From assembly GCA_030748575.1 (NCBI GenBank), contig JASMLR010000007.1:1-64000 (forward strand): a stretch of DNA of 64,000 nucleotides, written 5' to 3'. Of this stretch, positions 5,426 through 45,408 are shown piece by piece. Made by a program: the position numbers and the translations under genes. This stretch comes from Phycisphaerales bacterium. Lineage in GTDB: Bacteria > Planctomycetota > Phycisphaerae > Phycisphaerales > SM1A02. The notes beneath the pieces are model-generated. The model saw nothing but the letters and a program-made list of their open reading frames with translations. It was not told the origin of the DNA and did no database searches. Position 1 is the stretch's first letter; every line of letters starts with the position of its first letter.

Positions 5426-6556
5426 CTACCAGTCCTTTCCGGTCAGCGGTGTGCCGGCAGCCTCCTGCTCGGCCCTGTCGAGTCGCCGTTGCCGCTCTCG
5501 GTCACGGATGGCTTGCAGCATTCGCTCAGCTTCTTCCCGCGTCAGGGGCCCCTCGGCGCGGGGGACTCCCTGCGTCGGGACGTCGTCCGATGGTTGCTGG
5601 TTCGCGCGAGGTTGGGAGGGGGTGGTGTTCGGTGTCTGGTCGTCAGGGGGTGGTTGTTGGGCCTGCTGCTGATCCTGCTGTGACTGGTCCTGCTGTTGCT
5701 GCTGGTCCTGCTGTTGCTGGGACTGGCCCTTCTGTTGTTGCTGTTGGTTCTGCTGCTGCTGGGACTGGTCCTGTTGTTGCTGCTGTTGATCCTGCTGCTG
5801 CTGGGACTGGTCCTGTTGTTGCTGCTGTTGATCCTGCTGCTGCTGGGACTGGTCCTGTTGTTGCTGCTGCTGGTCCTGTTGCTGCTGGGACTGGTCCTGT
5901 TGTTGCTGTTGCTGGTCCTGTTGCTGCTGGGACTGATCCTGTTGCTGCTGTTGATCCTGTTGCTGCTGGGACTCGTCCTGTTGTTGCTGTTGATCCTGCT
6001 GCTGGGACTGGTCGTCTTGCTGCTGTTGCTGCTGCTGCTGTTGTTGGCGAGCCTGCTCCAACTGGGCGGCCACCAGTTCACCGTTGGCATTGGCCCAGTC
6101 TCGCCAGGGGGCACGCTTCGGCGCCGCCTGAATCGCGTGGCGGTAGGCCTGCAGCGCTTGCTCATAGTGGGCAATCTGCTCGGCGGGTGCTTCGGTCGAT
6201 TCGGCGTGTTTGGCAAGGGCATTGCCGCGGTTGTAGGCGGCGGCGGCCGACAGCGAGGGGTCGGTGGCCGACATGGCTCGCTCAAAGGCTGCGGCGGCTT
6301 GTGGCATGTCGCCAGCGTGGTATGCCGCCACGGCCTGGTCGTACGGGAGAATCGGATCCGGATTCGTCTGGCCTTGCTGAGCCGCGGCGAGTGCGGCGGC
6401 GGCTTCCGCCCAGGCCTCCCGGGCCCTGGCATCTTCGGCCACCCTGTAGAGCTCGCGGACCGATCGGGGCGACGATGGCCCATTCGAGTCGGCTCCACCT
6501 GGCAGGGGCGCGGCGGCGAGCACCGATGCCATCAGACATGTGGACAGCCAACTCAT
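5426..6556 (-). CDS. batC: BatC-like TPR protein with long poly-Gln repeat region
   Basis: 376 aa. A signal peptide (to about residue 22) is followed by TPR units (residues ~30-165; 'YNRGNALAKHA' is a typical TPR helix). Residues ~178-300 are almost only Gln with regularly spaced Ser and Asp in units such as SQQQQDQQQQQQDQ. The C-terminus is a charged helix. The ATG overlaps the batB stop by 4 bp. It occupies the batC place between the vWA protein BatB and BatD and would be a periplasmic scaffold. The Gln tract is far longer than in usual family members. TPR and position are visible; the scaffold role is inferred. Confidence 0.82.
   Translation of the reverse strand: MSWLSTCLMASVLAAAPLPGGADSNGPSSPRSVRELYRVAEDARAREAWAEAAAALAAAQQGQTNPDPILPYDQAVAAYHAGDMPQAAAAFERAMSATDPSLSAAAAYNRGNALAKHAESTEAPAEQIAHYEQALQAYRHAIQAAPKRAPWRDWANANGELVAAQLEQARQQQQQQQQQQDDQSQQQDQQQQQDESQQQQDQQQQQDQSQQQQDQQQQQQDQSQQQQDQQQQQQDQSQQQQDQQQQQQDQSQQQQDQQQQQQDQSQQQQNQQQQQKGQSQQQQDQQQQQDQSQQDQQQAQQPPPDDQTPNTTPSQPRANQQPSDDVPTQGVPRAEGPLTREEAERMLQAIRDRERQRRLDRAEQEAAGTPLTGKDW
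5661..6050. repeat. tandem repeat array coding poly-Gln/Ser/Asp region of BatC
   Basis: About eight tandem units of 39-42 bp, made of CAG/CAA codons broken by GAC and TCC (read on the minus strand). Units differ by synonymous CAA/CAG changes and one-codon length differences, so this is a protein repeat evolving by unit gain and loss, not a pure triplet run. The plus strand of the same DNA reads as a spurious poly-Leu frame. Confidence 0.85.
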
Positions 6557-20155: not shown

Positions 20156-21256
20156 ATGCGTGGCACACCATGTATGGCAACAGGGTGGCGGGGGGTGGAT
20201 GCGGCCCTCCGAGGCGCGTCGGCGTGGCGGCCTGCGGGTGGCGGGGCCTCCATCGCGGCTTCGCCGGTGCAGCGGGCGCGGGAGGCGTTGGAGGCATGGC
20301 AGGCAGGCGAAGGCGGCGGACCGGATTCGCCGGCCAGTTCACCGGCCAGTTCACCGGCCAGTTCATGGGCCAGCCCATCCACGGCCCGGCATGCAGGCGT
20401 TGCCACCGAGTCGACGTCTCCTGTTTCGCCGCACGTGCCAGCGGATGGCGGGCTGGTGGTCGCGGGTGTCCATGAGTTTCTGGGCGACGCAGGCCCGCCG
20501 CTGGGCCTGCTTGGTCGGTTGGCCGGCCGCTTTGTTGCTGCTGCAGGCATGCGAGGACAGGAAGGCGACGCGGTGATTTGGGTCGGCCGCCGGGTGTGGC
20601 CGGATCTTCCGGCGCTGGCGAGGCTGGGGCGTGCCAGCGGTGTCGATGTGCCGGGGGTGTCATTGTTCGTTGATCCTGCGGACGCCGTGGGCAGGTGGTG
20701 GTGCGCCGAGCGTTCGGTTCGCAGCGGTGTCGCGTGTTGCGTCGTGCTGGATGGCGCGGGGGCCACGCTGACGGTGACGCGGCGGCTCCATCTGGCGGCG
20801 ATGGAGGCGGGGGTCACAGTGCTCCTGGCACGGGACCACGATGAGCAGGCGTGCCCGTCCGCAGCCATGACCCGTTGGCGTGTGCGACGGCTGATGCCGG
20901 CGATCGACCGGATGTTGGGAAGCACGCAGCCACCTCGCGCGCGGTGGCGGTTGGATCTGCTGCGATGCAAAGGCAGGCAGGCCTTCCATCCATGCGGGGA
21001 TCGCGTGGCGGTGCAGCGAGCGGGTGATGGGGCACTCGCGTCCTGGATGTTGGAGTGGGATCATGTACACGGACCTGTCGATCTTCCTGCCGAGCTGGCC
21101 GACCGACCTCGAAGCGAGGCGGCTTCGCCGCCGCGAAGGGGAGAGGACGGTTCCGCCGATCTTGATCGAACGCCGCGTTGGCGAGCGGCGGATCGTCGCC
21201 GACGCATGCATTCGATGCCGACGCCTCGGGATTCGCTCCGGCATGGTGTTGGCTGA
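20156..21256 (+). CDS. imuA: ImuA-like translesion synthesis accessory protein
   Basis: 366 aa. The RecA-related ImuA family is recognised from 'GVHEFLG' (about residue 103), 'GDAVIWVGRRVWPDLPALAR', and the C-terminal 'ARWRLDLLRCKGRQ' followed by 'LPAELADRP'. It has no Walker A, as usual for ImuA. Residues ~58-72 carry an Ala-Ser-Ser-Pro repeat from a 12-bp DNA repeat. The C-terminus overlaps imuB by 194 bp, but the conserved ImuA tail lies inside that overlap, so the overlap looks real. ATG 20156 may be leaderless; ATG 20174 is an alternative. It works with ImuB and DnaE2 in damage-induced mutagenesis. Confidence 0.8.
   Translation: MRGTPCMATGWRGVDAALRGASAWRPAGGGASIAASPVQRAREALEAWQAGEGGGPDSPASSPASSPASSWASPSTARHAGVATESTSPVSPHVPADGGLVVAGVHEFLGDAGPPLGLLGRLAGRFVAAAGMRGQEGDAVIWVGRRVWPDLPALARLGRASGVDVPGVSLFVDPADAVGRWWCAERSVRSGVACCVVLDGAGATLTVTRRLHLAAMEAGVTVLLARDHDEQACPSAAMTRWRVRRLMPAIDRMLGSTQPPRARWRLDLLRCKGRQAFHPCGDRVAVQRAGDGALASWMLEWDHVHGPVDLPAELADRPRSEAASPPRRGEDGSADLDRTPRWRAADRRRRMHSMPTPRDSLRHGVG
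20329..20377. repeat. 12-bp tandem repeat (about 4 units) inside imuA
   Basis: Unit CCGGCCAGTTCA repeats about four times with drift in the last unit. In the imuA frame it encodes SPASSPASSPASS, a flexible linker between the N-terminal helix and the RecA-like core. In-frame unit size means copy-number change would not break the gene. Confidence 0.75.
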
Positions 21257-22592
21257 AGCGACCGGCCTGCTCGACGCTTCTGATGCAGGAACGCCGCGAG
21301 TTCGCGAAGCGGCGCCTGAACGAGACACGGCTGCATTGCAGGCGTTGGCGATCTGGATGCGAAGGTTCACACCGCTGGTTGGCACCGATCCGCCCGACGG
21401 CCTCCGATTGGATGTTCGCGGGTGCACCCATCTTTTCGGCGGCAGTGAGCGGCTCGCAGGATCGATCCGATCGAGTTTGCAGGGCCTGCATGTGTCTGCG
21501 GTCGTCGCCGCGGCGCCGGCGGCGGCGATGGCGTGGGGCCTGGCGCGATTTGGAGGGCCGCAGATCGATGTGCGCCGGGCCGGCGCCCTCCCGCTGGCGG
21601 CGCTCCGCTTGTCCGCTGAAGATCATCAGGCGCTCGGCGAGGTTGGCATTGAAACGGTATCGCAGGCCATCGACCTCCCCCGAGTTGAATTGGCTGCAAG
21701 GTTCGGTGAGGCGGTGCTCCGTCGGATTGATGCGTGGACAGGCGACGATCCCGAGCCGCCGATCGACGGGCGTCCGCCGGAGCGGGGTATCGAAGTGAGC
21801 CGGGTGTTCGACGGTCCGGTTCGAGATCTTGAGGCGATTCAGCTTGTGATGTCTCAGTTGCTGGACGAACTGGCGGCCATGTTGGCTGATCGACAACGCG
21901 GCGCCGAGCGCATCGAAGCGTGTATGCATCGGTGTGACCGGCCGGATTGGCGATGGGCGATGGACGCGACGCGGCCGACGCGGGATGCGTCACATCTCAA
22001 GACAATCTTTCGTGAACGTCTGGAGCGTGTCGACGTCGCTTGCGGCGTGGAATCGGTGGCACTGCATGTTGCTCGCGATGCCTCGCTCCGTGGTGCCCAG
22101 CACGTGGTGTGGGATGTTGCACCCGAATCAGCCTGTCGCACGGGGCTGGGGGCGCTGGTGGACCGATTGCAGGCACGCTGCGGCGCGGTGCACATGCGGC
22201 GGGAAGTCGATGCGTACGTGGTTCGGTCGGGCTGTGATGGCGTGGCTCCGGGGTCTCCGGGGGACACAGGGCCTGGCACTCGGCCTGATGATGTGGCGTC
22301 ATCGACGCACTGGCGGGATCGGCCGACGAAACTCGTGTCACCTGTTCGGATCGACGTGCGATTGCCGGAGCCGGGATCGCACGGGCTGCTTCGCCGGCAG
22401 CGCCACTGCTGGCGGGTTGTCGTGGCGGCTGGGCCCGAACGGCTCGACCTGCCCTGGTGGACCGAGGCGGGACGGCGCATGGAGCCGGTGACGCGGACGC
22501 GGGATTACTGGCGGGTGTTGCGTGAGGACGGTCAATGGGTCTGGATCTACCGGTGTGTGGATGACTGGTTTCTCCAGGGGGCGTGGGTGTGA
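21063..22592 (+). CDS. imuB: ImuB, catalytically inactive Y-family polymerase homologue
   Basis: 509 aa. The start at 21063 matches the family N-terminus (LSIFLPSWPTDLEARR, equivalent to 'LWLPNWPIDR'). The Y-family catalytic acids are missing: the first site reads LSIFLPSW and the second 'GLRLDVRGCTHLFGG' has no Asp-Glu pair, as is normal for ImuB. The C-terminus ends with the family pattern 'RDYWRVL...WIYR...WFLQGAWV'. In known systems ImuB is the hub binding DnaE2, ImuA and the beta clamp. It overlaps imuA at the 5' end and dnaE2 by 4 bp (GTGA). Confidence 0.9.
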   Translation: MYTDLSIFLPSWPTDLEARRLRRREGERTVPPILIERRVGERRIVADACIRCRRLGIRSGMVLAEATGLLDASDAGTPRVREAAPERDTAALQALAIWMRRFTPLVGTDPPDGLRLDVRGCTHLFGGSERLAGSIRSSLQGLHVSAVVAAAPAAAMAWGLARFGGPQIDVRRAGALPLAALRLSAEDHQALGEVGIETVSQAIDLPRVELAARFGEAVLRRIDAWTGDDPEPPIDGRPPERGIEVSRVFDGPVRDLEAIQLVMSQLLDELAAMLADRQRGAERIEACMHRCDRPDWRWAMDATRPTRDASHLKTIFRERLERVDVACGVESVALHVARDASLRGAQHVVWDVAPESACRTGLGALVDRLQARCGAVHMRREVDAYVVRSGCDGVAPGSPGDTGPGTRPDDVASSTHWRDRPTKLVSPVRIDVRLPEPGSHGLLRRQRHCWRVVVAAGPERLDLPWWTEAGRRMEPVTRTRDYWRVLREDGQWVWIYRCVDDWFLQGAWV

Positions 22593-25500
22593 GCGCGGCA
22601 TCCCAAGCCGCCTACTGCGAGTTGGAGATCGCCACGGCCTACAGCTTTCTGTGTGGGGCCAGCCTCCCGGAGTCGTACGTGCACCGGGCCGCCGAACTCG
22701 GGTACACCACGGTCGGCATCACCGATGACGGGAGCGTCGGGGGGTTGGTACGCGCACACGTTGCTGGCCGGGAGACAGGTGTGCGGGTTGCCTGCGGCGC
22801 CCGGCTCCGGTTGGCGGTGGACGCGCAGTCGAGTCAGCACATGTCGATGCTGGTGTATGCGACCGATCGATCCAGTTGGGGTGGGCTCTGTCGATTGCTC
22901 ACGTCGGGGCGGCGTCGGGCGGCCAAGGGCGAGTATCGATTGACGCTGTCGGATCTGGTTCGCCATCACGACGGGTTGCTCGCGATTCTCCTGCCCGGCC
23001 GAGGTTCGCCACCTGCGAACGCGGTGATCGAGCGGCTTTGCGACACCTTCGACGACGACAGGCTGTCGATGTCGCTACATCGACACCTCGACGGCGACGA
23101 CGACACGGAAGTGATGCGCCGGGTGTCACTTGCCAGCCGGTTTGATGTACCGGTTGTTGCGACGAACGACGTGCGGTTCCATGTGCCGTCTCGAAGGCGG
23201 TTGCATGACGTGATGACATGCATTCGCCTGCACTGCAGGATCGATGATGCCGGCACGCAGTTGCTCTCCAACAGCGAGCGGTATCTGCAGCCGCCGCAGC
23301 GTATGGCGGAGCGGTTCGCGTCGCTTCCTGAGGCGATCGACCGCAGCGTGGTGATCGCAACTCGGGCGACGGAGAACTTTTCGCTCGATCGCGTGCGATA
23401 CCGGCCGCCGGGTGACGTGTGCCCGGAGGGGATGAATGAGAATGACCGGCTCCGGTCGCTGGTGGATGAAGGTCTTCGCCGCCGGGGTGGCGCCGAATCG
23501 ATCCGCCCGCAGATCGACAGGGAGTGCGAACTCATCGCCGAACTCGGATACGCGTCCTACTTCCTGACCGTCCACGACATTGTTCGATTCGCTCGCGGGC
23601 GGGGCATTCTCTGCCAGGGTCGCGGCTCGGCTGCGAATTCCGCCGTGTGTTGGGCGCTTGGAATCACGGCGGTCGATCCGGCGAGAGGCAATCTGCTGTT
23701 TGAGCGGTTTCTCAGCCGCGAGCGGGGCGAGCCGCCGGACATCGATATCGACTTTGAACATGACCGCCGCGAGGAAGTCATTCAGTACATCTACCGGCGG
23801 TACGGGCGTGATCGGGCTGCGCTCTGTGCAACAGTCATTACGTGGCGGTGGCGCAGTGCGATCCGTGAAGTCGGCCGCGTGCTTGGTTTGTCCCTGGACG
23901 TGATTGAACGACTGGCGAAGGGTGGCCGCGAAGGAGCGTCAGCGGATACGGCGCCTTCGGAAGGTGTGGTGTCGTTGGCGATCGAACTGGCGACAGCGTT
24001 TCGTGGACTTCCTCGGCACCGCTCACAGCATGTCGGTGGGTTTGTGATCACCGCGGATCCGCTCGAAGCGATTGTGCCCATCGAGAACGCTGCGATGGAT
24101 GATCGCACCGTTATCGAGTGGGACAAGGACGATCTTGAAGCGATGGGCTTGCTCAAGATCGATGTGCTCGGCCTGGGCATGCTCAGTTGCATTCGCCGTT
24201 GTCTGGATGAAGTTGGAGGTGACCCGCCGATGACACTGGCGAGCATTCCGGCAGAAGATCCGGATGTGTACGACATGTGTTGTCGCGCCGACACGGTGGG
24301 GGTGTTCCAGATCGAGTCGCGGGCACAGATGGCGATGCTCCCGCGATTGCAGCCACGGTGCTTCTACGACCTGGTCATCGAGATCGCGCTGGTCCGGCCC
24401 GGACCGATTCAAGGAGGCATGGTGCATCCGTATCTCCGGCGGCGGGAGGGACGGGAGGCGATCACCTACCCGAACGACGCGGTGCGGCACGTTCTGGAAC
24501 GGACGTTGGGTGTTCCGATCTTTCAGGAGCAGGCGATGCGTCTGGCGATGGTGGCCGGTGGGTTCACTGCAGATGAGGCCGAGCGACTTCGCAGGGCGAT
24601 GGGCGCGTGGAAGCGGCGGCCGGACACGATGCAGGCCATCGGCGGGCGCCTGATCGACGGTATGCGGGCCAGGGGATACGACCAGTCGTTCATCGATCGG
24701 TGCTGGCGGCAGATTCATGGGTTCAGCGAATACGGCTTTCCGGAGTCGCATTCTGTGAGTTTCGCACTGCTTGTCTATGCGTCGGCGTGGCTCAAGCATC
24801 ATCACCCCGCGGCGTTTGCGTGCAGCCTGCTCAACAGTCAGCCCATGGGTTTCTATGCGCCAGCTCAGATCGTGCGTGACGCCGTCGAGCATGGTGTGAC
24901 GGTGCGTCCGGTGGACGTTGCGCACAGTCGCGTCGGATGCACGCTTGAAGATCAGGAAACGGGCTCGCCGTCACTCAGGCTTGGCCTCCGCATGGTTCGA
25001 GGGCTGAGCCGTGATGATGCGACGCTGATCTGCGCAGCGGCCGCGAGCGGCGCTGCAGATCTTCAGCAACTGCACGCGTTCGGTGTCGGGCCCGGTGCGC
25101 TTCGAGCGGCTGCAAGGGCAGATGCCTTCGGTTCGATGGGGTTCGATCGGCAGTCGGCGTTGTGGGAGATTCGGCTCATCGAGCGTGGTGTGCTTCCGCT
25201 CTTCCCTGCGGGCTCCGCGCCGCCGAGGGTAGACCCTGCCCGCGGGCTGCCAAAGGTCGCGTTGGACAGGCAGGTTCGTGACGATTATCAGGCGACCGGC
25301 TTGTCGCTCAAGGCACATCCCGTGTCCTTCCTCAGGACATGGCTTGAGACGCGGGGCGCGAGCACGGCGGAGTCCATTCGTGCAGCGTGGCCGCAGTCAG
25401 GGGGGCAGCCGATGCGTGCTGCGGTGGGGGGATTGGTGTTGGTCAGGCAACGACCACATTCGGCCAAGGGCATGACGTTCATGACGGTTGAGGACGAAAC

Positions 25501-25804
25501 CGGCGCGGCCAACATCGTGATCACGCCACCGGTGTATCGGCGTTGCCGCGCGGCCATTCGATTGAGCCCGTTTGTGCTTGTGTACGGCACCATTGAGCGT
25601 CGAGGCGAGGTCGTTCACCTGAAGGCCGAGGAGGTGGTTGGGTGCACGATCGGGCCCGCTGTCGGTGAGGGGACGCTATATGGCGAAGACCAGAATGAAC
25701 ACGATCAGCACGACGACCGTGATGACGACCATCAGTCGTCGTTGGAAGTCCGCTGCAGCGGGTGGTCGGCGCAGCACGCGGCCACCGATCCAGGCTCCAC
25801 ATGA
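22589..25804 (+). CDS. dnaE2: error-prone DNA polymerase DnaE2
   Basis: 1071 aa. GTG 22589 is chosen because AGGGGG lies 7-8 nt upstream and GTGA overlaps the imuB stop; an in-frame GTG at 22583 is too close to the RBS. The N-terminal PHP domain begins 'YCELEIATAYSFLCGASLPE'. Polymerase catalytic acids are present: PDIDIDF (residues 383-389) and D525 in KIDVLGLG. The C-terminal OB fold has 'MTFMTVEDETGAANIVI' and 'GEVVHLKAEEV'. The last ~45 residues (His/Asp-rich) replace the usual Ser-Arg-Asp-Phe end and overlap a convergent gene by 129 bp. It is the polymerase of the ImuABC mutasome and bypasses lesions with low fidelity. Confidence 0.94.
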   Translation: MSAASQAAYCELEIATAYSFLCGASLPESYVHRAAELGYTTVGITDDGSVGGLVRAHVAGRETGVRVACGARLRLAVDAQSSQHMSMLVYATDRSSWGGLCRLLTSGRRRAAKGEYRLTLSDLVRHHDGLLAILLPGRGSPPANAVIERLCDTFDDDRLSMSLHRHLDGDDDTEVMRRVSLASRFDVPVVATNDVRFHVPSRRRLHDVMTCIRLHCRIDDAGTQLLSNSERYLQPPQRMAERFASLPEAIDRSVVIATRATENFSLDRVRYRPPGDVCPEGMNENDRLRSLVDEGLRRRGGAESIRPQIDRECELIAELGYASYFLTVHDIVRFARGRGILCQGRGSAANSAVCWALGITAVDPARGNLLFERFLSRERGEPPDIDIDFEHDRREEVIQYIYRRYGRDRAALCATVITWRWRSAIREVGRVLGLSLDVIERLAKGGREGASADTAPSEGVVSLAIELATAFRGLPRHRSQHVGGFVITADPLEAIVPIENAAMDDRTVIEWDKDDLEAMGLLKIDVLGLGMLSCIRRCLDEVGGDPPMTLASIPAEDPDVYDMCCRADTVGVFQIESRAQMAMLPRLQPRCFYDLVIEIALVRPGPIQGGMVHPYLRRREGREAITYPNDAVRHVLERTLGVPIFQEQAMRLAMVAGGFTADEAERLRRAMGAWKRRPDTMQAIGGRLIDGMRARGYDQSFIDRCWRQIHGFSEYGFPESHSVSFALLVYASAWLKHHHPAAFACSLLNSQPMGFYAPAQIVRDAVEHGVTVRPVDVAHSRVGCTLEDQETGSPSLRLGLRMVRGLSRDDATLICAAAASGAADLQQLHAFGVGPGALRAAARADAFGSMGFDRQSALWEIRLIERGVLPLFPAGSAPPRVDPARGLPKVALDRQVRDDYQATGLSLKAHPVSFLRTWLETRGASTAESIRAAWPQSGGQPMRAAVGGLVLVRQRPHSAKGMTFMTVEDETGAANIVITPPVYRRCRAAIRLSPFVLVYGTIERRGEVVHLKAEEVVGCTIGPAVGEGTLYGEDQNEHDQHDDRDDDHQSSLEVRCSGWSAQHAATDPGST

Positions 25805-25921
25805 CGGGCACGCATCTGCCTCGTCCCAGACCGTGTCGCCGCACTCGGGGCACCAGCCGGTCTGGTCACCGTCGTCTCCGAATCGAGCGACATCTTCAGG
25901 AGATGGGTCTTCGTCACGCAT
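25676..25921 (-). CDS. small membrane protein with zinc ribbon
   Basis: 81 aa. Four cysteines in two CxxC pairs (C24, C27, C38, C41; 'WCPECGDTVW...ACPSCGAWIG') make a zinc ribbon, followed by a single C-terminal transmembrane helix (residues ~63-81, VVITVVVLIVFILVF). It starts 5 bp after the transglutaminase-like gene, in the same operon, and its 3' half overlaps the end of dnaE2 on the other strand. The clear domain layout argues that this strand is coding here. Function unknown. Confidence 0.75.
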   Translation of the reverse strand: MRDEDPSPEDVARFGDDGDQTGWCPECGDTVWDEADACPSCGAWIGGRVLRRPPAAADFQRRLMVVITVVVLIVFILVFAI

Positions 25922-25926
25922 GGAGG

Positions 25927-27090
25927 CTAGGGCGCGCCCGTCCGCTCAAGCCGAATGCTCGAAGGGATGGGTCGTTGCGGGTCCAGCGTGAACGGCCCCG
26001 ACGGGGTATCGACCGTGCCGTTGACGATCTCGACGGGGAAGTTTGCCGCCGGCAGGAAACGCCCCCAACCCCACGGAGCCCAGGCGTCGTACGCCGTCGC
26101 CACCTTCAGCGGGCCAAACGACCAGGCCAGCGGAATACGCCGCTGCAATTGCCGCAAGGTCCCAAAGCCGGTCCACGCGTTTCTCGGGTCCAGCGTTCCA
26201 AGCGCCTGCTGACGGAGCACGTCCGGGTCAAAGGGCGTCCATCCACATTCAGGCAGGTACACCTCGGCCCAGACGCCGTACTCGGTCAGTCGCCCGTACC
26301 CGGCACTGCCCAGTCCGATGACGGGGCGGGCTGGAAGCCCTGCAGCCCGAAGCATGGCCACGCAGATGCAGACGAGATCGGCGGGGCTTCCGGTGCCGGA
26401 CTCCGCCGCCTTCCTGGCCCCTTGAACCCCGATGCCCCGCACCTGGCCCTGCGGGCCGAGGCTCATTCGACTGTCGCTTGTGTCCACGACCTTGAACCGG
26501 TTGCATGCGTCTCGAACAATGAGCTTGGCGGCCTGGGCCGGCGGCACGCTCCGAACATTGCCCTTGGTCAGCGCCTCCACCGTTGCGGTGATGACCTCCG
26601 CATCGGATTCAATCAGGGGTCCCGCCTTGAGCAGCGACGTCACGGCGGCCGGCCAGGTCGCCGGCCAGGGAGTCGCCATTGCTTCCGCATCATCAAACAC
26701 GCTCGACCACACGGTGGCCGTGGCCGTGACCTGCACCTGCAGTGGCCAGGTCTGGACCGGCGGGACATCGATCCGCAACTCGCCGCCGCCCAGATCGCCC
26801 GGGCCTTCGAGGGACTCGACGGCATCGATGTTGACCGTGTCCCGCCCGGCCTTGAGCGCCACGGCAAACCCGGTTGCGTCGAGGGTGCTCCAGGGACCGG
26901 TGACGATGATCGGCATCGTCCATGCCTGACCCTGTCCGGATGACGGTGGGTAGTTGATGGTCGTCGTGATCGTCATGCGGTGTCGAACCGACTCGCCTCG
27001 TTGGAGGGGGCCCTGAGGCTGAATCAGCGGCGGCTCCGCCGGTGCGGGCTGGCTCAACACGGCAAGCGCCAGGAGGCTGGGGATGATCAT
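25927..27090 (-). CDS. transglutaminase-like protein with degenerate catalytic triad
   Basis: 387 aa, exported (signal to about residue 18). Residues ~160-292 align with the transglutaminase core: 'MLRAAGLPARPVIGLG' and 'WAEVYLPECGWTPFDPD' are diagnostic. However the nucleophile Cys position is Pro236 (GSPAD instead of G-x-C) and the His position is Gly272 (YGVW instead of xHaW); only Asp288 remains. It is therefore unlikely to be a protease or cross-linker, and is more likely a binding domain. It overlaps mlaE by 4 bp and precedes the zinc-ribbon gene. The N-terminal ~150 residues are beta-rich. Confidence 0.83.
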   Translation of the reverse strand: MIIPSLLALAVLSQPAPAEPPLIQPQGPLQRGESVRHRMTITTTINYPPSSGQGQAWTMPIIVTGPWSTLDATGFAVALKAGRDTVNIDAVESLEGPGDLGGGELRIDVPPVQTWPLQVQVTATATVWSSVFDDAEAMATPWPATWPAAVTSLLKAGPLIESDAEVITATVEALTKGNVRSVPPAQAAKLIVRDACNRFKVVDTSDSRMSLGPQGQVRGIGVQGARKAAESGTGSPADLVCICVAMLRAAGLPARPVIGLGSAGYGRLTEYGVWAEVYLPECGWTPFDPDVLRQQALGTLDPRNAWTGFGTLRQLQRRIPLAWSFGPLKVATAYDAWAPWGWGRFLPAANFPVEIVNGTVDTPSGPFTLDPQRPIPSSIRLERTGAP

Positions 27091-27923
27091 GAGAGTGGGC
27101 TCTTGAATCCAATGCCCAGCACGAGTGACCCGAACGTACGGAGGAACTCGGCCAGCGCAAGATTGATGATGATGATCGCGAGAAAGGAGGATACGAACGA
27201 CTCAGTTGTTGCGCGACCAACCCCCGCCGCACCGGGCTTGCAGTGGAATCCCTTGTAGCAGGAGATCAGCCCGATGCTCAGGCCGAAGAACGTCGCCTTG
27301 ATCAGGCCTGTGGCCGGCTCCCACCACGTCAGAAACCAGGCCGTGTTGTCCCAATACTCACGCTCTGAGACGCCGTGCCAGACGACGGTGAACGTCCAGC
27401 CGCCTGCGACCCCGAGGAGATCCGAGAAGATGGTGAGAATGGGCGTCATGAGCGTGCATGCAATCACGCGGGGGACGACCAGCACCGCGATCGGGTCCGC
27501 GCCCATCGCCCGCACAGCGTCCAGTTGCTCGGTCACCCGCATGGTGCCCAGTTCGGCTGTGAGGGCGCCTCCGACCCGGCCGGCCACCATGACGGCGGCC
27601 AGGACCGGTCCGATCTGCTTGACCACCGAGACGTTGATGATCATGCCCAGTTTGCTCTCAAGCCCGTAGACCTGAAACTGGGCAAAGCTCTCGATGGCCA
27701 GGATCATCCCGATGAATGCACCGGTGATGGCCACCACGGGCACGCTCATCACGCCGACATCCAGCAGCAGGGGCGCGAGGATCCGCCACCGAAGCCAGCG
27801 TCCGGGCGCCGTGACGGTTGCAGCGGCAGCCCGCCCGGCAAACCGCGCAAACCTGCCGGCACCCTGCACGGGCATACGGATCCGACGACCCACATGAGCC
27901 GCTGCAGACATCGCGTTGATCAC
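27087..27923 (-). CDS. mlaE: MlaE-family lipid ABC transporter permease
   Basis: 278 aa from GTG 27923, with GGAGG seven bases upstream. Five to six membrane helices and the MlaE signature 'ELGTMRVTEQLDAVRAMGADPI' are present, as is 'LESKLGMIINVSVVKQIGPVLAAVMVAGRVGGALTAE' in segments. In Gram-negatives this permease works with MlaF ATPase and an MCE protein to move phospholipid between membranes. Those partners are not here but near 43-45 kb. It lies 22 bp after the OmpA-like lipoprotein gene. Confidence 0.93.
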   Translation of the reverse strand: MINAMSAAAHVGRRIRMPVQGAGRFARFAGRAAAATVTAPGRWLRWRILAPLLLDVGVMSVPVVAITGAFIGMILAIESFAQFQVYGLESKLGMIINVSVVKQIGPVLAAVMVAGRVGGALTAELGTMRVTEQLDAVRAMGADPIAVLVVPRVIACTLMTPILTIFSDLLGVAGGWTFTVVWHGVSEREYWDNTAWFLTWWEPATGLIKATFFGLSIGLISCYKGFHCKPGAAGVGRATTESFVSSFLAIIIINLALAEFLRTFGSLVLGIGFKSPLS

Positions 27924-27945: not shown

Positions 27946-28776
27946 TCACTTCATGGGCTCGTCGAACGCGCCTTGTGTGGAGGTATCAACCTCGACGACC
28001 GATGTGGTCTCCGTCTTCGGAGCCGGGACCAGATACATCTCGACGCGGCGGTTTTCCGCCGTGCCGCCAGCGGTGTTGGGAACGATGGGGTGGAACTCGC
28101 CGTCACCTGCAACACGTACCTGGGTGGGATCGACGCCTGCCTTGACCAGGGCGTTCCGCACCGCGATCGCGCGATGAACAGAGAGGTGCAGGTTCGTGGG
28201 ATGCGCCTGCCGAGAGTGCGTGACCGGTACGTCGTCGGTATGGCCAACGACCAGAACTTCAAGGGGAACCGCGGTCGGTGAGGAGATAATGTCTGCGATG
28301 GCCGTCAGGGGGCTGTCGCTGGTCGGCCGCAGTTGATCGGAGCCACTCGCAAACGTCAGGTCGCTTGAGAAGCGGAGCATGCCGCTCTTCGGGTCAAACG
28401 AAATGTGCTGCGGGTTCGATGCCGCGATGCCGGACAGGGCCGACTCCATGTCCTCGGGAAGTTGCCCGACCTCAAGGGCCGTCAAGTGCCGGGCCAGCGT
28501 GTCGTTTCGTTGGGCCAGCGTGTCCCAGCGGTTGTTCAGGTCGTCGTACTCGGACTGGAGCCGGTCGATATCGCCGCGGGCCTGTTCCAGTTCCTGATTC
28601 CGGCGGACCAGCGTCTGCTCGATCTCGCCGCGGTCACGTTCTGCGTCGCTCAACTGCTGAACCAGCGAGCGGTTGACATTCTGCAGGGCTTCGTACTTTC
28701 GATTGTTCTGGGTCGAGCAGCCCATCGTGGTCAGGGCTGTAGCGGCCAGAAGGCCCAGCGTCAGGCGTTGGAACAT
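27946..28776 (-). CDS. OmpA/Pal-like peptidoglycan-associated lipoprotein with coiled coil
   Basis: 276 aa. ATG 28776 is preferred (GGAGGG about 10 nt upstream); ATG 28785 is only a base from that RBS. The lipoprotein signal ends LTTMGC. A coiled coil spans residues ~30-95 (NRSLVQQLSDAERDRGEIEQ; 'ELEQARGDIDRLQSEYDDL'). The C-terminal OmpA domain has VVGHTDDVPV, 'NLHLSVHRAIAVRNALVKAGV' and 'NRRVEMYLVP', the peptidoglycan-binding pattern. It heads an operon with mlaE, so it may couple lipid transport to the cell wall. Confidence 0.88.
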   Translation of the reverse strand: MFQRLTLGLLAATALTTMGCSTQNNRKYEALQNVNRSLVQQLSDAERDRGEIEQTLVRRNQELEQARGDIDRLQSEYDDLNNRWDTLAQRNDTLARHLTALEVGQLPEDMESALSGIAASNPQHISFDPKSGMLRFSSDLTFASGSDQLRPTSDSPLTAIADIISSPTAVPLEVLVVGHTDDVPVTHSRQAHPTNLHLSVHRAIAVRNALVKAGVDPTQVRVAGDGEFHPIVPNTAGGTAENRRVEMYLVPAPKTETTSVVEVDTSTQGAFDEPMK

Positions 28777-28914
28777 GGTGGTCATCCCTCCAAAGGCATG
28801 GTGACATTGGCAGGCCCGCAGGGGGTCCCACACCGCGATCCGCATCCATCGCGGCTCGATCGGCTCGGCCAGTGTATAAACCGATGCCCCAGCAGGTTGG
28901 AGTCCGATGTGCCC
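28777..28914. promoter_or_regulatory. divergent intergenic region with TATAAA box
   Basis: 138 bp between the OmpA-like lipoprotein (leftward) and the amidohydrolase (rightward). TATAAA at 28875-28880 could serve as a -10 for the rightward gene, and its complement TTTATA for the leftward one; no good -35 is seen for either. Promoter activity is likely from position, the exact elements uncertain. Confidence 0.35.
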
Positions 28915-30210
28915 ATGGTTGAAACCTGTGGAGAACCTGTCCACAAGCGCCGCCTGATCCATGCCGGCGGCGTGATCGATGCATTCGGACTGCACCTGAG
29001 TCCGGCCGCCGTCCTCGTGGATGGAGGGGTGGTTCGCGCGGTGGGCTCCCCGGCGTCGATTGGCCGCCCGGGCGGGGTGGTCGTGGAAGATTGGGCCGGA
29101 TCGCTGCTCATGCCCGGGCTGGTCAATGCCCACGCCCACCTGGACCTCAGCGGCGCGGGGGTCTGGCCTCCCGCCGGCGAGGACTTCCGCGGCTGGGTGG
29201 GCCGGGTTCGAGACCTGCGGGCCGCGGCGTCGCTGGCTGACGTTCGCGCGGCCGTCAGCCGCGGCATCGACCTCTCACTTGCCGGCGGGACCGCGTGCAT
29301 CGGAGATATCGCCGGGCACCCGCCGGGGCCCTCCATCGACCTGCTGCGGGCGAGCCCGCTGCGGGGCACCAGTTTCATCGAGTGCTTCGGGATCGGCAGG
29401 GGGCAGGCGGCGGCCCTGAGGCGTATGCAGGAGACCCTCGCTGCGATGACCGAGTATGACCGGGGGATTCGGATCGGCATTTCGCCCCACGCGCCGTACT
29501 CCTGCGGTCCGGAGATGTTTGCCGCCGCCGCGACCTCGGGCCGCCCCGTCATGACGCATCTGGCCGAGACGCCGGCGGAACTGGAACTGCTGCAGCACGG
29601 ATCGGGCCCGCTTCGTGACATGCTGGAGCATGACATCGGCGTGTGGGACGCCGAGGTGACCTGCCCGGCGGCCCATCCGGTCGACGTGCTTCTGCCCGCC
29701 CTCAAGGCGGCGCGGGCTGTCTGCGTGCACGTCAACTGGCTCGAGCCTGCTCACGTCGACACGCTGGCCGCGGCGGGGGCGCGTGTGGTGTACTGCCCGC
29801 GGGCATCAGCGGCCTTCGGGCACGCGCCTCCGCGTCTGCCCCGACACCCGTGGGCAGCGCTTCGCGCGGCGGGGGTGCGGGTTGGACTGGGGACTGATTC
29901 GCTGCTGTGTCTGGACACGCCGGACCGCATCAGCGTGCTGGACGACATGCGTCTGCTTCGCCGCCGCGACGGCGTCGACGGGCTGACGCTTCTGGACATG
30001 GCCACCAGAAGCGGGGCCGACGTCCTCGATCTGCGTCCGGACCTCGTGCGGCTCGGGCCGCAGGTGGCCGGTCTCCTGGCCGTTCCCTGCAGCGGCGTGG
30101 ACGCCCCGGGGATGCTGGAGGATGCGTTGAGCCGGTCCGACGCCCCTGTGTGGGCGGTCGCGCCATCCGCTGGGGCCCCTCAGGGGGGGGCGACGCCGGG
30201 CAAATCCTGA
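28915..30210 (+). CDS. amidohydrolase / deaminase-family metal-dependent hydrolase
   Basis: 431 aa from ATG 28915 (GGAG upstream). TIM-barrel amidohydrolase of the cytosine/SAH/chlorohydrolase group: metal-binding 'PGLVNAHAHLDLSG', active-site 'GISPHAPYSCGP', 'MTHLAETPAE' and VCVHVNWL, and the fourth metal ligand in LGTDSLLCLD. Nucleoside-type deaminases such as SAH or aminodeoxyfutalosine deaminase share this pattern; substrate cannot be set from the sequence. The long open frame upstream of 28915 is antisense to the OmpA-like gene and not part of this protein. Confidence 0.85.
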   Translation: MVETCGEPVHKRRLIHAGGVIDAFGLHLSPAAVLVDGGVVRAVGSPASIGRPGGVVVEDWAGSLLMPGLVNAHAHLDLSGAGVWPPAGEDFRGWVGRVRDLRAAASLADVRAAVSRGIDLSLAGGTACIGDIAGHPPGPSIDLLRASPLRGTSFIECFGIGRGQAAALRRMQETLAAMTEYDRGIRIGISPHAPYSCGPEMFAAAATSGRPVMTHLAETPAELELLQHGSGPLRDMLEHDIGVWDAEVTCPAAHPVDVLLPALKAARAVCVHVNWLEPAHVDTLAAAGARVVYCPRASAAFGHAPPRLPRHPWAALRAAGVRVGLGTDSLLCLDTPDRISVLDDMRLLRRRDGVDGLTLLDMATRSGADVLDLRPDLVRLGPQVAGLLAVPCSGVDAPGMLEDALSRSDAPVWAVAPSAGAPQGGATPGKS

Positions 30211-43075: not shown

Positions 43076-44053
43076 TCAGGGGGCCAGCAGCGGCCCGACC
43101 CCTTCTTCCCGGATCTGCTCGACCATCAGCCGCATCGACTCGGCAAGGCGGTCGAGTTGCGCAGCGGTTTGTTCCAGCCGGTTGTAGAGGTCCGGGTTGG
43201 TCAGCAACTGCCCGGCGGTGCCTTCGCCGCTTTGCATGGACGCCATGATGCCGGCCGCCTGATGCAGCGCCTCAGCGAGGGCCCGTCCGGCGGAAGCGAC
43301 TTCGCCGGCGACCTCGGTCGTTTCACGATCAATCGTGCTGGCCATGTCGTCAAACGTCTCAAGGGCTGTGACGGCCCGGTCAAGACTCGCCAGCGCCATG
43401 TGCATGACTTCGCCTGCGTTCTTTCGGAGTTGGGGATCTTCAAGCCAGGACTGGGCCGCGGCGAGCGTGCGGTCGGCCCTGGCGACGATGGACGGAACAG
43501 TGATCTCTGCCGGCTCCTCGCCTTCGCCCAACATGGCGGCAAGCCCGTCGCCGACCGGTGCCCACCGTGTGCCGAGGTCGGTGATCGCCCCGAGGGCGGG
43601 CCCGACCTGCTCGTCCAGAACCGCCGTGATGTCACGCATGGCCGTCGAGTGAATGCGGCCGCTCAGTTCCGCCGTACCGTCCTTCGGAAGTGTCTCGCCC
43701 GTTCGATCGGGCGGAGACTCCAGATAGAGGTTGGCCGAACCGGTCAGGAGGGACATCACGGTCAGGGGCGTGACGCCGACAGGAACGGAGACGTCTTCAT
43801 CGATGCTCGCGATGATGCGTACCGACCAGGGGCCGGTTGCGATGGGCTCCACACGCTCAATCCCGCCGATCGTCACGCCGTCGAGTTGAACAGTGCTGCT
43901 GTCACCGATCCCGGCGGTCGCCGGGGTCAGCACGGTGAGTGTCCATCGGTTCGTCGTATCGAATTCGCCAAAGAGCTGCAGGAGCACCACGACCGACACG
44001 ACGGCGGCAATGGCGCACACACCGATCAGCCCGTCACGCTTTGTCTCATTCAT
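43076..44053 (-). CDS. mlaD: MCE-domain protein (MlaD-like)
   Basis: 325 aa. One N-terminal transmembrane helix ('LIGVCAIAAVVSVVVLLQLFG') anchors a single MCE domain (residues ~38-125: 'GIGDSSTVQLDGVTIGGIERV'). The long C-terminal helical region includes 'SAGRALAEALHQAAGIMAS' and 'LYNRLEQTAAQLDRLAESMRLM'. In the Mla pathway the MCE hexamer carries lipid between permease and partners. The ATG overlaps the mlaF stop by 4 bp. Confidence 0.88.
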   Translation of the reverse strand: MNETKRDGLIGVCAIAAVVSVVVLLQLFGEFDTTNRWTLTVLTPATAGIGDSSTVQLDGVTIGGIERVEPIATGPWSVRIIASIDEDVSVPVGVTPLTVMSLLTGSANLYLESPPDRTGETLPKDGTAELSGRIHSTAMRDITAVLDEQVGPALGAITDLGTRWAPVGDGLAAMLGEGEEPAEITVPSIVARADRTLAAAQSWLEDPQLRKNAGEVMHMALASLDRAVTALETFDDMASTIDRETTEVAGEVASAGRALAEALHQAAGIMASMQSGEGTAGQLLTNPDLYNRLEQTAAQLDRLAESMRLMVEQIREEGVGPLLAP

Positions 44054-44847
44054 GCGGCTGCTCCCGGGTCCGCGTCGTGAAGATCGTCCACCGTGGCCCT
44101 GCCATCAAGGAAGCTCCGCACGACCGGGTCCTGGCTTGATTCAAACACTTCGGGGGGACCGGCGAGGTAGATGGATCCCCGTCGGAGCAGAAGGACGTGG
44201 TCGGCCACTTTGAATGCCAGAGCGATGTCGTGCGTCACGACGACGCTCGTCGGATTCAACTCGCGGCGAAGCATGGCAATGAGTCGGGCGACGACGTCGC
44301 TTCGGATCGGGTCCAGCCCCGTGGTTGGTTCGTCATAGAGCATGCACTCCGGTCGCAGGACGACGGATCGGGCCAACGCAACCCGCTTCTGCTGGCCTCC
44401 CGACAACTCGGCGGGGAGGCGGTCGATGAGATCATCGACACCCAGCAACGCGAGCGTCTCCCGAACGCGGGCCCGTCTCGCGGCGGTATCCAGATCGGTG
44501 TGCTCGCGAAGCGGAAACGCAACATTCTCGAGCACGGTCATCGAGTCGAACAGGGCGCCGTGTTGAAACAGGAATCCGATTCTCCGCCGGACGTCGCCAA
44601 GATCTCGCTCGGAATGCTGGTCGATTCGGGTGCCGTCAAAGATGATCTCGCCGGCGTCGGGTCGGAGCAGTCCGATCATCAGTTTGAGCATGACGCTCTT
44701 GCCTGCGCCGCTTGGGCCCAGGATGACCGTCGTGTCGCCCCGTCTCACCGTCAGGTCGATGCCGTCAAGCACCGGGGGGCCTCCGAAGCCCTTGGTGATG
44801 TGCCGGAACTCCAGGATGGGGTCGGCGTGCTCATGTGAACTCTGCAT
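44050..44847 (-). CDS. mlaF: MlaF-like ABC transporter ATPase
   Basis: 265 aa from ATG 44847; upstream open frame is antisense to the Nudix gene. Walker A GPSGAGKS, Q-loop FLFQHGALFDSMTV (a phrase typical of MlaF), signature LSGGQQKRVALAR, Walker B 'CMLYDEPTTGLDP', H-loop VVTHD. It powers phospholipid transport with MlaD (next gene) and presumably the MlaE encoded 16 kb away. Divergent from the Nudix gene by 27 bp. Confidence 0.93.
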   Translation of the reverse strand: MQSSHEHADPILEFRHITKGFGGPPVLDGIDLTVRRGDTTVILGPSGAGKSVMLKLMIGLLRPDAGEIIFDGTRIDQHSERDLGDVRRRIGFLFQHGALFDSMTVLENVAFPLREHTDLDTAARRARVRETLALLGVDDLIDRLPAELSGGQQKRVALARSVVLRPECMLYDEPTTGLDPIRSDVVARLIAMLRRELNPTSVVVTHDIALAFKVADHVLLLRRGSIYLAGPPEVFESSQDPVVRSFLDGRATVDDLHDADPGAAA

Positions 44848-44874
44848 GCAGCCGCACCCTATCATCCCCGGGCC

Positions 44875-45408
44875 GTGACGACCCGGACCATCCAGCGCGA
44901 ACGTCTGCTTGAGGGCCGCATCTTTGCCGTCGATCGGTGCGGCTGGACCGCGGGCGACGGCACCAATGTCGTTCGCGAAGTCGTCAGGCATCCTGGCGCT
45001 GTCACGATCGTGCCTGTACGCGACGACGGCCGGATCGTGCTGGTGCGTAATTGGCGAATCGCCGTCGGCGGGCCGCTGTGGGAGCTGCCTGCCGGGAAGC
45101 GGGAGCCGAACGAGGATCCGGCGGACACGGCGAGCCGCGAACTGAGGGAGGAGACGGGGTACGCCGCCGGTGCCATGACGCCCCTCGGGTCGTATTACAC
45201 GTCGCCCGGGTTTGCAGACGAACTGATGCATGCATTTGAGGCGACATCGCTCACTGCGGGGACACCCGCCCCGGAGGCCGGGGAGGAACTGGAGGTGGGC
45301 CTGTTCGAGTGCGGCGAGCTGGACGACCTGGCTCGCCGCGGCGCCTTCCGGGACGGCAAGTCCCTCGCCGCGCTGCACCTGTGGCGGCTTCACCGGGGGG
45401 TGGCGTGA
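44875..45408 (+). CDS. Nudix hydrolase (ADP-ribose pyrophosphatase-like)
   Basis: 177 aa; GTG start at 44875 without a clear RBS. The Nudix box 'GKREPNEDPADTASRELREETGY' (given here in parts G-x5-E-x7-REL-x-EET-G) is intact, and 'GSYYTSPGFADE' is typical of ADP-ribose or NDP-sugar pyrophosphatases. It cleaves nucleoside diphosphate linkages for house-cleaning. Its stop overlaps the rhomboid start (TGATG). Confidence 0.9.
   Translation: MTTRTIQRERLLEGRIFAVDRCGWTAGDGTNVVREVVRHPGAVTIVPVRDDGRIVLVRNWRIAVGGPLWELPAGKREPNEDPADTASRELREETGYAAGAMTPLGSYYTSPGFADELMHAFEATSLTAGTPAPEAGEELEVGLFECGELDDLARRGAFRDGKSLAALHLWRLHRGVA

Follow-up and report, generated by a model that had tools for sequence, protein, structure and literature searches.

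A transglutaminase-like protein family of Phycisphaerales without the catalytic cysteine, and its variable proximity to mlaE

Introduction

What does a protein with a transglutaminase fold do without the residues on which catalysis depends? The question is raised by a gene in a 64,000-nucleotide stretch of a Phycisphaerales genome (GenBank assembly GCA_030748575.1, contig JASMLR010000007.1, positions 1 to 64,000; this whole stretch is referred to as the window). An initial annotation, made from the letters of the window, described the gene product as a transglutaminase fold that has lost its catalytic Cys and His and kept only the Asp, noted translational coupling to mlaE, and proposed a non-catalytic sensor or adaptor for the lipid transporter. 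Proteins that match the Pfam family PF01841 tend to be annotated as transglutaminases. The protein belongs to an order-wide family that matches PF01841 well but is without the known catalytic residues; to call it a transglutaminase would mislead. We refer to its members as pseudo-transglutaminases.

A transglutaminase core without Cys and His

The gene and its triad positions, read directly from the codons and placed by alignments, are:

25927..27090, minus strand: pseudo-transglutaminase gene, 387 aa with an ATG start; hydrophobic N-terminus, beta-rich N-terminal part and a transglutaminase core without Cys/His
26383..26385, minus strand: codon 236, CCC (Pro), at the catalytic Cys position
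26275..26277, minus strand: codon 272, GGC (Gly), at the catalytic His position
26227..26229, minus strand: codon 288, GAC (Asp), at the third triad position, kept

PF01841 (Transglut_core) is the sole Pfam family above cut-off in the 387-aa protein (49.8 bits against a cut-off of 23, E 4.7e-13, residues 222-289), and no second domain was matched. The match above the curated cut-off and the predicted core fold place the protein in the superfamily. The Cys-His-Asp triad that characterizes catalytic transglutaminases and proteases of this kind is not there, with Pro236 and Gly272 preceding Asp288. The loss of Cys and His is confirmed at the codon level, and Asp288, on the Asp column of the alignments, is the only triad residue kept, as originally described.

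The register was checked in three ways. A MAFFT alignment with intact paralogues from the same genome (L035, L036) and a same-genus genome (L034) put residues 236, 272 and 288 on the Cys, His and Asp columns of the motifs GVCQDF..HAW..DP and GNCTDF..HCW..D. When 30 non-family transglutaminase rows (other Planctomycetota, other phyla, the window’s own genome and a same-genus genome) were aligned to the family HMM, 29 had Cys on column 236 and 29 had His on column 272; L072 deviates by carrying Pro at the former column and L096 by carrying Arg at the latter. The count excludes L070 and a second frame of L068, both gapped at the Cys column. Third, in an AlphaFold2 model (pLDDT 88.7, pTM 0.89, 28 aligned sequences), helix 236-249 begins at the Cys position, residue 272 lies within strand 269-279, and Asp288 follows directly after strand 283-287. 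This order of elements is that expected of a transglutaminase core and supports the register.

Fold comparison extends the resemblance beyond the core. The best Foldseek match of the model is 3isr (E 1.5e-13), a putative cysteine protease of Cytophaga hutchinsonii with a transglutaminase-like fold, and VIA-align 2 superimposes the two with Z 20.0 and rmsd 3.4 over 262 aligned residues (model residues 31-387, 13% identity). This full-length match suggests that the whole predicted protein, not only its core, has a bacterial transglutaminase-like architecture, although identity is low and the window protein, unlike a cysteine protease, is without Cys and His. Transglutaminases 2 and 3, factor XIII, TgpA, TglA and human protein 4.2 align with Z of about 8 to 9.6 in VIA-align 2, and the individual fold rows for protein 4.2 are 8csw (Z 8.2), 7uzs (Z 8.2) and 7tvz (Z 7.3). 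In sequence searches of the PDB, phmmer with the single 387-aa protein as query gave no significant match, and with the family profile it gave TgpA 6g49 only (E 2.2e-7). Each of the 32 members of alignment A1 has a Transglut_core match at E ≤ 0.01.

The protein would be exported into the periplasm or envelope via its hydrophobic N-terminus. By a hydrophobicity heuristic, a hydrophobic N-terminal 12-mer occurs in 81 of 101 family members, compared with 1 of 101 for an internal control stretch. The window protein itself has no Lys or Arg ahead of the hydrophobic stretch. Its top 19-residue hydrophobicity, 1.62, lies inside the core helix, and no strongly hydrophobic, transmembrane-like 19-mer was found in the 387 residues.

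The family across Phycisphaerales

Homologues were found in 33 of the 41 genomes of a first genome set, and an order-wide search at E ≤ 1e-15 found family members in 178 of 251 genomes. At this threshold there was no match in the listed genomes of f5 and f6. For the active site, we aligned 113 members from 103 loci, hand-picked for spread among the hits of both searches and covering part of the 178 genomes; matches with gaps at both triad columns are omitted from the count. The 60 loci from f1, the family to which the window belongs, represent 59 genomes, with G503b a second locus of G503.

Cys is absent from column 236 throughout (0/113). His occupies column 272 in nine members, all from f2 (f1 0/60; f2 9/40; f3 0/2; f4 0/11), and Asp occupies column 288 in 102 of 113. 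The Cys-to-Pro and His-to-Gly changes of the window protein are thus part of a wider loss that is complete for Cys in this sample and nearly so for His. Ranked by conservation among the 68 core columns, 236 and 272 come 49th and 54th. Their place among the more variable positions indicates that no replacement active site is apparent there. P253, R255, W284, E276, R248, G259 and W274 are 96-100% conserved, and K189, like E276, reaches 99% in the 113 members. Apparently relaxed constraint on the old catalytic site, combined with strong constraint on the frame around it, is the signature expected when catalysis has been lost but the fold kept, and as far as sequences can tell, the function of the family is very likely non-catalytic. 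An alternative register that would supply another Cys/His pair was considered and rejected, given that the best Cys column (241) reaches 60% and the best His column (324) 41% of the 113 members; no such pair is apparent in any columns of the alignment.

How often the residues were lost is less clear. On the tree, the His state changes six times within the family, which suggests that His loss was probably not one single event. For the origin of the family two changes are needed (one in 10% of bootstrap trees), and three for the Cys state; a single Cys loss for the family may have occurred but is not proved by these reconstructions. The trees were built on random subsamples of f1 and f2 rows. 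In a quick tree the long-branched L034/L035 paralogues landed among f1 rows, and a second tree, which gave the counts of changes above, excluded L034/L035 and L069. Two f2 members that keep His have Asp or Glu at the Cys position (L168 in G308 and L191 in G300, the G300 copies being in tandem), and they may possibly represent intermediate states of triad loss.

The ratio dN/dS is about 0.2 (0.044/0.210) for the pair L003/L005 and about 0.09 for L007/L008, where dS is near saturation. Judged from these ratios, purifying selection on the family is evident.

Gene neighbourhood and the link to mlaE

The genes of the window that bear on the proposed transporter link are:

27946..29139, minus strand: gene for an OmpA-domain envelope protein, upstream of mlaE (PF00691, 59.3 bits); the true start is probably inside the ORF
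27087..27923, minus strand: mlaE, of the type termed MlaE-b (PF02405, 245.6 bits); 4-nt overlap with the ATG of the pseudo-transglutaminase gene
25676..25921, minus strand: gene for an 81-aa protein that combines a two-CxxC zinc ribbon with a single hydrophobic segment, directly downstream of the pseudo-transglutaminase gene
43079..44053, minus strand: MlaD-like (MCE) gene; PF02470, 23.6 bits in one search (cut-off 25.1) and 26.3 bits, over the cut-off, in another
44053..45393, minus strand: ABC ATPase gene, MlaF-like by its position beside the MCE gene (PF00005, 117.2 bits)

In order on the minus strand, the OmpA-domain gene is followed by mlaE, the pseudo-transglutaminase gene and the zinc-ribbon gene. 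The coupling to mlaE that was originally noted is borne out, as the mlaE stop and the pseudo-transglutaminase start share a 4-nt overlap (ATGA) in eight of nine same-genus genomes, including that of the window; in the ninth there is a gap of at least 150 nt. The MCE and ABC ATPase genes lie on the same strand 16 kb upstream of the pseudo-transglutaminase gene. The MCE gene possibly belongs to the same transporter as MlaE-b, and several relatives have an MCE gene at a similar distance from an mlaE of the MlaE-b type. The genome of the window also encodes a second, distant MlaE (38% identity).

Is the pairing general? Within f1, 47 of 60 loci have a co-directional mlaE immediately upstream, but no mlaE neighbour was found in any of the 43 loci of f2, f3 and f4. 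The two genes also part company in both directions. Genus g238 is a case of clean loss of MlaE-b with the pseudo-transglutaminase retained: six genomes (G366, G514, G532, G376, G390, G444) carry the pseudo-transglutaminase and only the other MlaE type, and at four g238 loci (L149, L150, L158, L159) the gene immediately follows the OmpA gene without an intervening mlaE match, and a zinc-ribbon gene lies 3' of it in all four. Likewise, G017, G407 and G434 keep the pseudo-transglutaminase with MlaE solely of the other type, G431 and G537 have only a divergent MlaE that is not of the MlaE-b type, and no MlaE was found in G450 and G482, which keep the pseudo-transglutaminase. The single MlaE of G488 is of unassigned type, and in G018 and G020 MlaE-b is encoded elsewhere in the genome. 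The sole MCE match of G431 adjoins its other MlaE; the pair of MlaE-b and MCE genes may thus have been lost jointly while the pseudo-transglutaminase stayed.

Conversely, six of seven g234 genomes (G327, G416, G459, G480, G506, G526) have MlaE-b and no family member; searches for the pseudo-transglutaminase there gave at best weak matches to the core, with E no better than 1e-5, and the surroundings of MlaE-b in four of the six held no pseudo-transglutaminase hit. The mlaE link is therefore a feature of f1 that does not carry over to f2-f4 and is broken in g238 and g234. The constant association with MlaE/F/D genes expected of an Mla component is not observed, and dissociation in both directions makes an obligatory MlaE-b adaptor unlikely. 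Of the role first proposed, the non-catalytic part stands and the transporter-adaptor part is weakened; a functional association with MlaE-b at the level of the clade is possible.

Other neighbours also differ by clade. Zinc-ribbon relatives lie beside the pseudo-transglutaminase gene in 27 of 60 f1 loci, in 20 of them co-directional and in 7 convergent, and no such neighbour occurs at the 43 f2-f4 loci. The most frequent neighbour cluster in f2 is fumarase, encoded near the pseudo-transglutaminase in 13 genomes. In f4, up to three tandem pseudo-transglutaminase copies occur by CBS-domain and/or SpoVR genes (e.g. L025:4978-8498, L028:5035-8506). Neighbour clustering identified no universal gene partner; fumarase was the best in f2 and CBS/SpoVR in f4.

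Discussion

So, is the protein an accessory of a lipid transporter? As a dedicated subunit or sensor of the MlaE-b transporter, it would touch MlaE on the periplasmic side. The frequency of co-directional mlaE immediately upstream in f1 and the overlap conserved within the genus are what such a partnership would leave behind, and human protein 4.2, a dead transglutaminase, appears among the fold matches in complex with band 3 (7tvz). However, the pseudo-transglutaminase is kept without MlaE-b in g238, G017, G407, G434 and others, MlaE-b persists without it in most g234 genomes, and mlaE is absent from the neighbourhood at all f2-f4 loci, and we consider a dedicated role unlikely. Still more doubtful is an elaborate version for f1. 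MlaA and MlaC matches were each found in 0 of 25 genomes, an absence that fits the minimal MlaEFD systems described in a paper on Veillonella Mla (PMC10665443). In an MlaFED-type transporter without recognisable MlaA/MlaC, the f1 protein might have been recruited as a periplasmic bridge from MlaE-b to the OmpA-like protein of the same operon, in a role like that of MlaC/MlaA; we regard this as a long shot.

Continued catalysis with a different residue set, such as Asp288/Glu276/Lys189 or Cys241, seems quite improbable to us. Asp288 is widely kept, E276 and K189 are nearly invariant, and active-site migration is described for the papain-like superfamily (PMC10318531). Yet Cys reaches at most 60% and His at most 41% in any column, and the W-x-E frame that contains E276 also occurs in most non-family transglutaminase rows, suggesting a structural role; conserved K189 and E276 might serve a non-Cys chemistry at a site that has escaped notice, but both may be structural. 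Cys241 was rejected as a replacement nucleophile, being absent in 29 of 40 f2 members and located five residues down the helix from the original position. Decay into a pseudogene, to which the lost catalytic residues and the absence of the gene from some genomes might point, is scarcely credible: the family is present in most genomes of the order with nearly all of the matches listed in open frames, the predicted fold is confident, and dN/dS well below 1 already contradicts it.

The explanation we favour, with moderate confidence, is an exported, catalytically dead transglutaminase-like protein that acts as a non-catalytic envelope scaffold or peptide-binding protein; the most likely mechanism, we infer, is that it acts in the envelope by binding or as a scaffold. 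The fold would have been retained as the nucleophile was lost, and the protein would reach the periplasm or envelope via its hydrophobic N-terminus. There, a peptide, a protein or a wall component could be held in the former substrate cleft or on the conserved surface rich in Trp, and the pseudo-transglutaminase could serve as a scaffold or adaptor. In f1, co-expression with an envelope operon (OmpA-like protein and MlaE-b) is probable, with MlaE-b not an obligatory partner.

Dead bacterial envelope transglutaminases are already known, and the Phycisphaerales proteins are a new family of that kind. RloB of Pseudomonas is described as an inactive transglutaminase that faces the periplasm and whose mutation rescues defects of the envelope (PMC12239564), and disruption of the inactive transglutaminase HM2192 of a vesicle-producing bacterium is described as raising vesicle production (PMC12096838). 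These share with the window protein a bacterial origin, a (here predicted) envelope location and, in their descriptions, inactivity. However, proteins of the RloB type, HM2192 among them, are fused to seven transmembrane helices, whereas the window protein has no predicted transmembrane bundle and only PF01841 above its cut-off. The inactive N-terminal transglutaminase domains of polymorphic toxins, for which a role as peptide-binding anchors has been proposed (PMC3482391), resemble it in their loss of catalytic residues and in export, which is predicted for the window protein, but the latter is free-standing, with no other domain in its 387 residues.

Eukaryotic parallels are more distant. 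The Cys-less transglutaminase-like domain of yeast Cyk3 is described as activating the membrane chitin synthase Chs2 (PMC4758748), and thus regulates a membrane enzyme by binding; unlike the window protein, it keeps His and Asp, both functionally important in Cyk3. EPB42 (human erythrocyte protein 4.2) and FBXO21 are named as inactive transglutaminases (PMC10318531), but protein 4.2 is eukaryotic and much larger, and a Z of 8 marks a domain-level match only. In the literature collection that we searched, no paper mentions both ‘Phycisphaer’ and ‘transglutaminase’, and none on a transglutaminase/MlaE pairing was listed. The family offers a natural series, with Cys lost throughout, His kept in some f2 members and tandem copies in f4, for studying the passage from an enzyme fold to an envelope binding protein, and the genomes of g238 and g234 offer natural test cases for any partnership with MlaE.

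Some further observations concern the surroundings of these genes. In some f1 genomes, large ORFs that look secreted and have internal repeats and dockerin-like C-termini (L040:932-3859, L050:3209-5788) separate the OmpA gene from mlaE or from the pseudo-transglutaminase gene; the L040 ORF has no Pfam match at 0.01. Outside the family, the L072 protein (Eremiobacterota, about 6001-6237), which is transglutaminase-like, has Pro at the Cys position and keeps His and Asp, and may be an independent loss of Cys. Elsewhere in the window, a Y-family polymerase-like gene with IMS domains (21024-22592, plus strand) overlaps a DnaE2-like polymerase gene (22583-25804, plus strand), and the upstream ORF (20156-21256, plus strand) may complete an imuA-imuB-dnaE2 mutagenesis cassette as its third gene.
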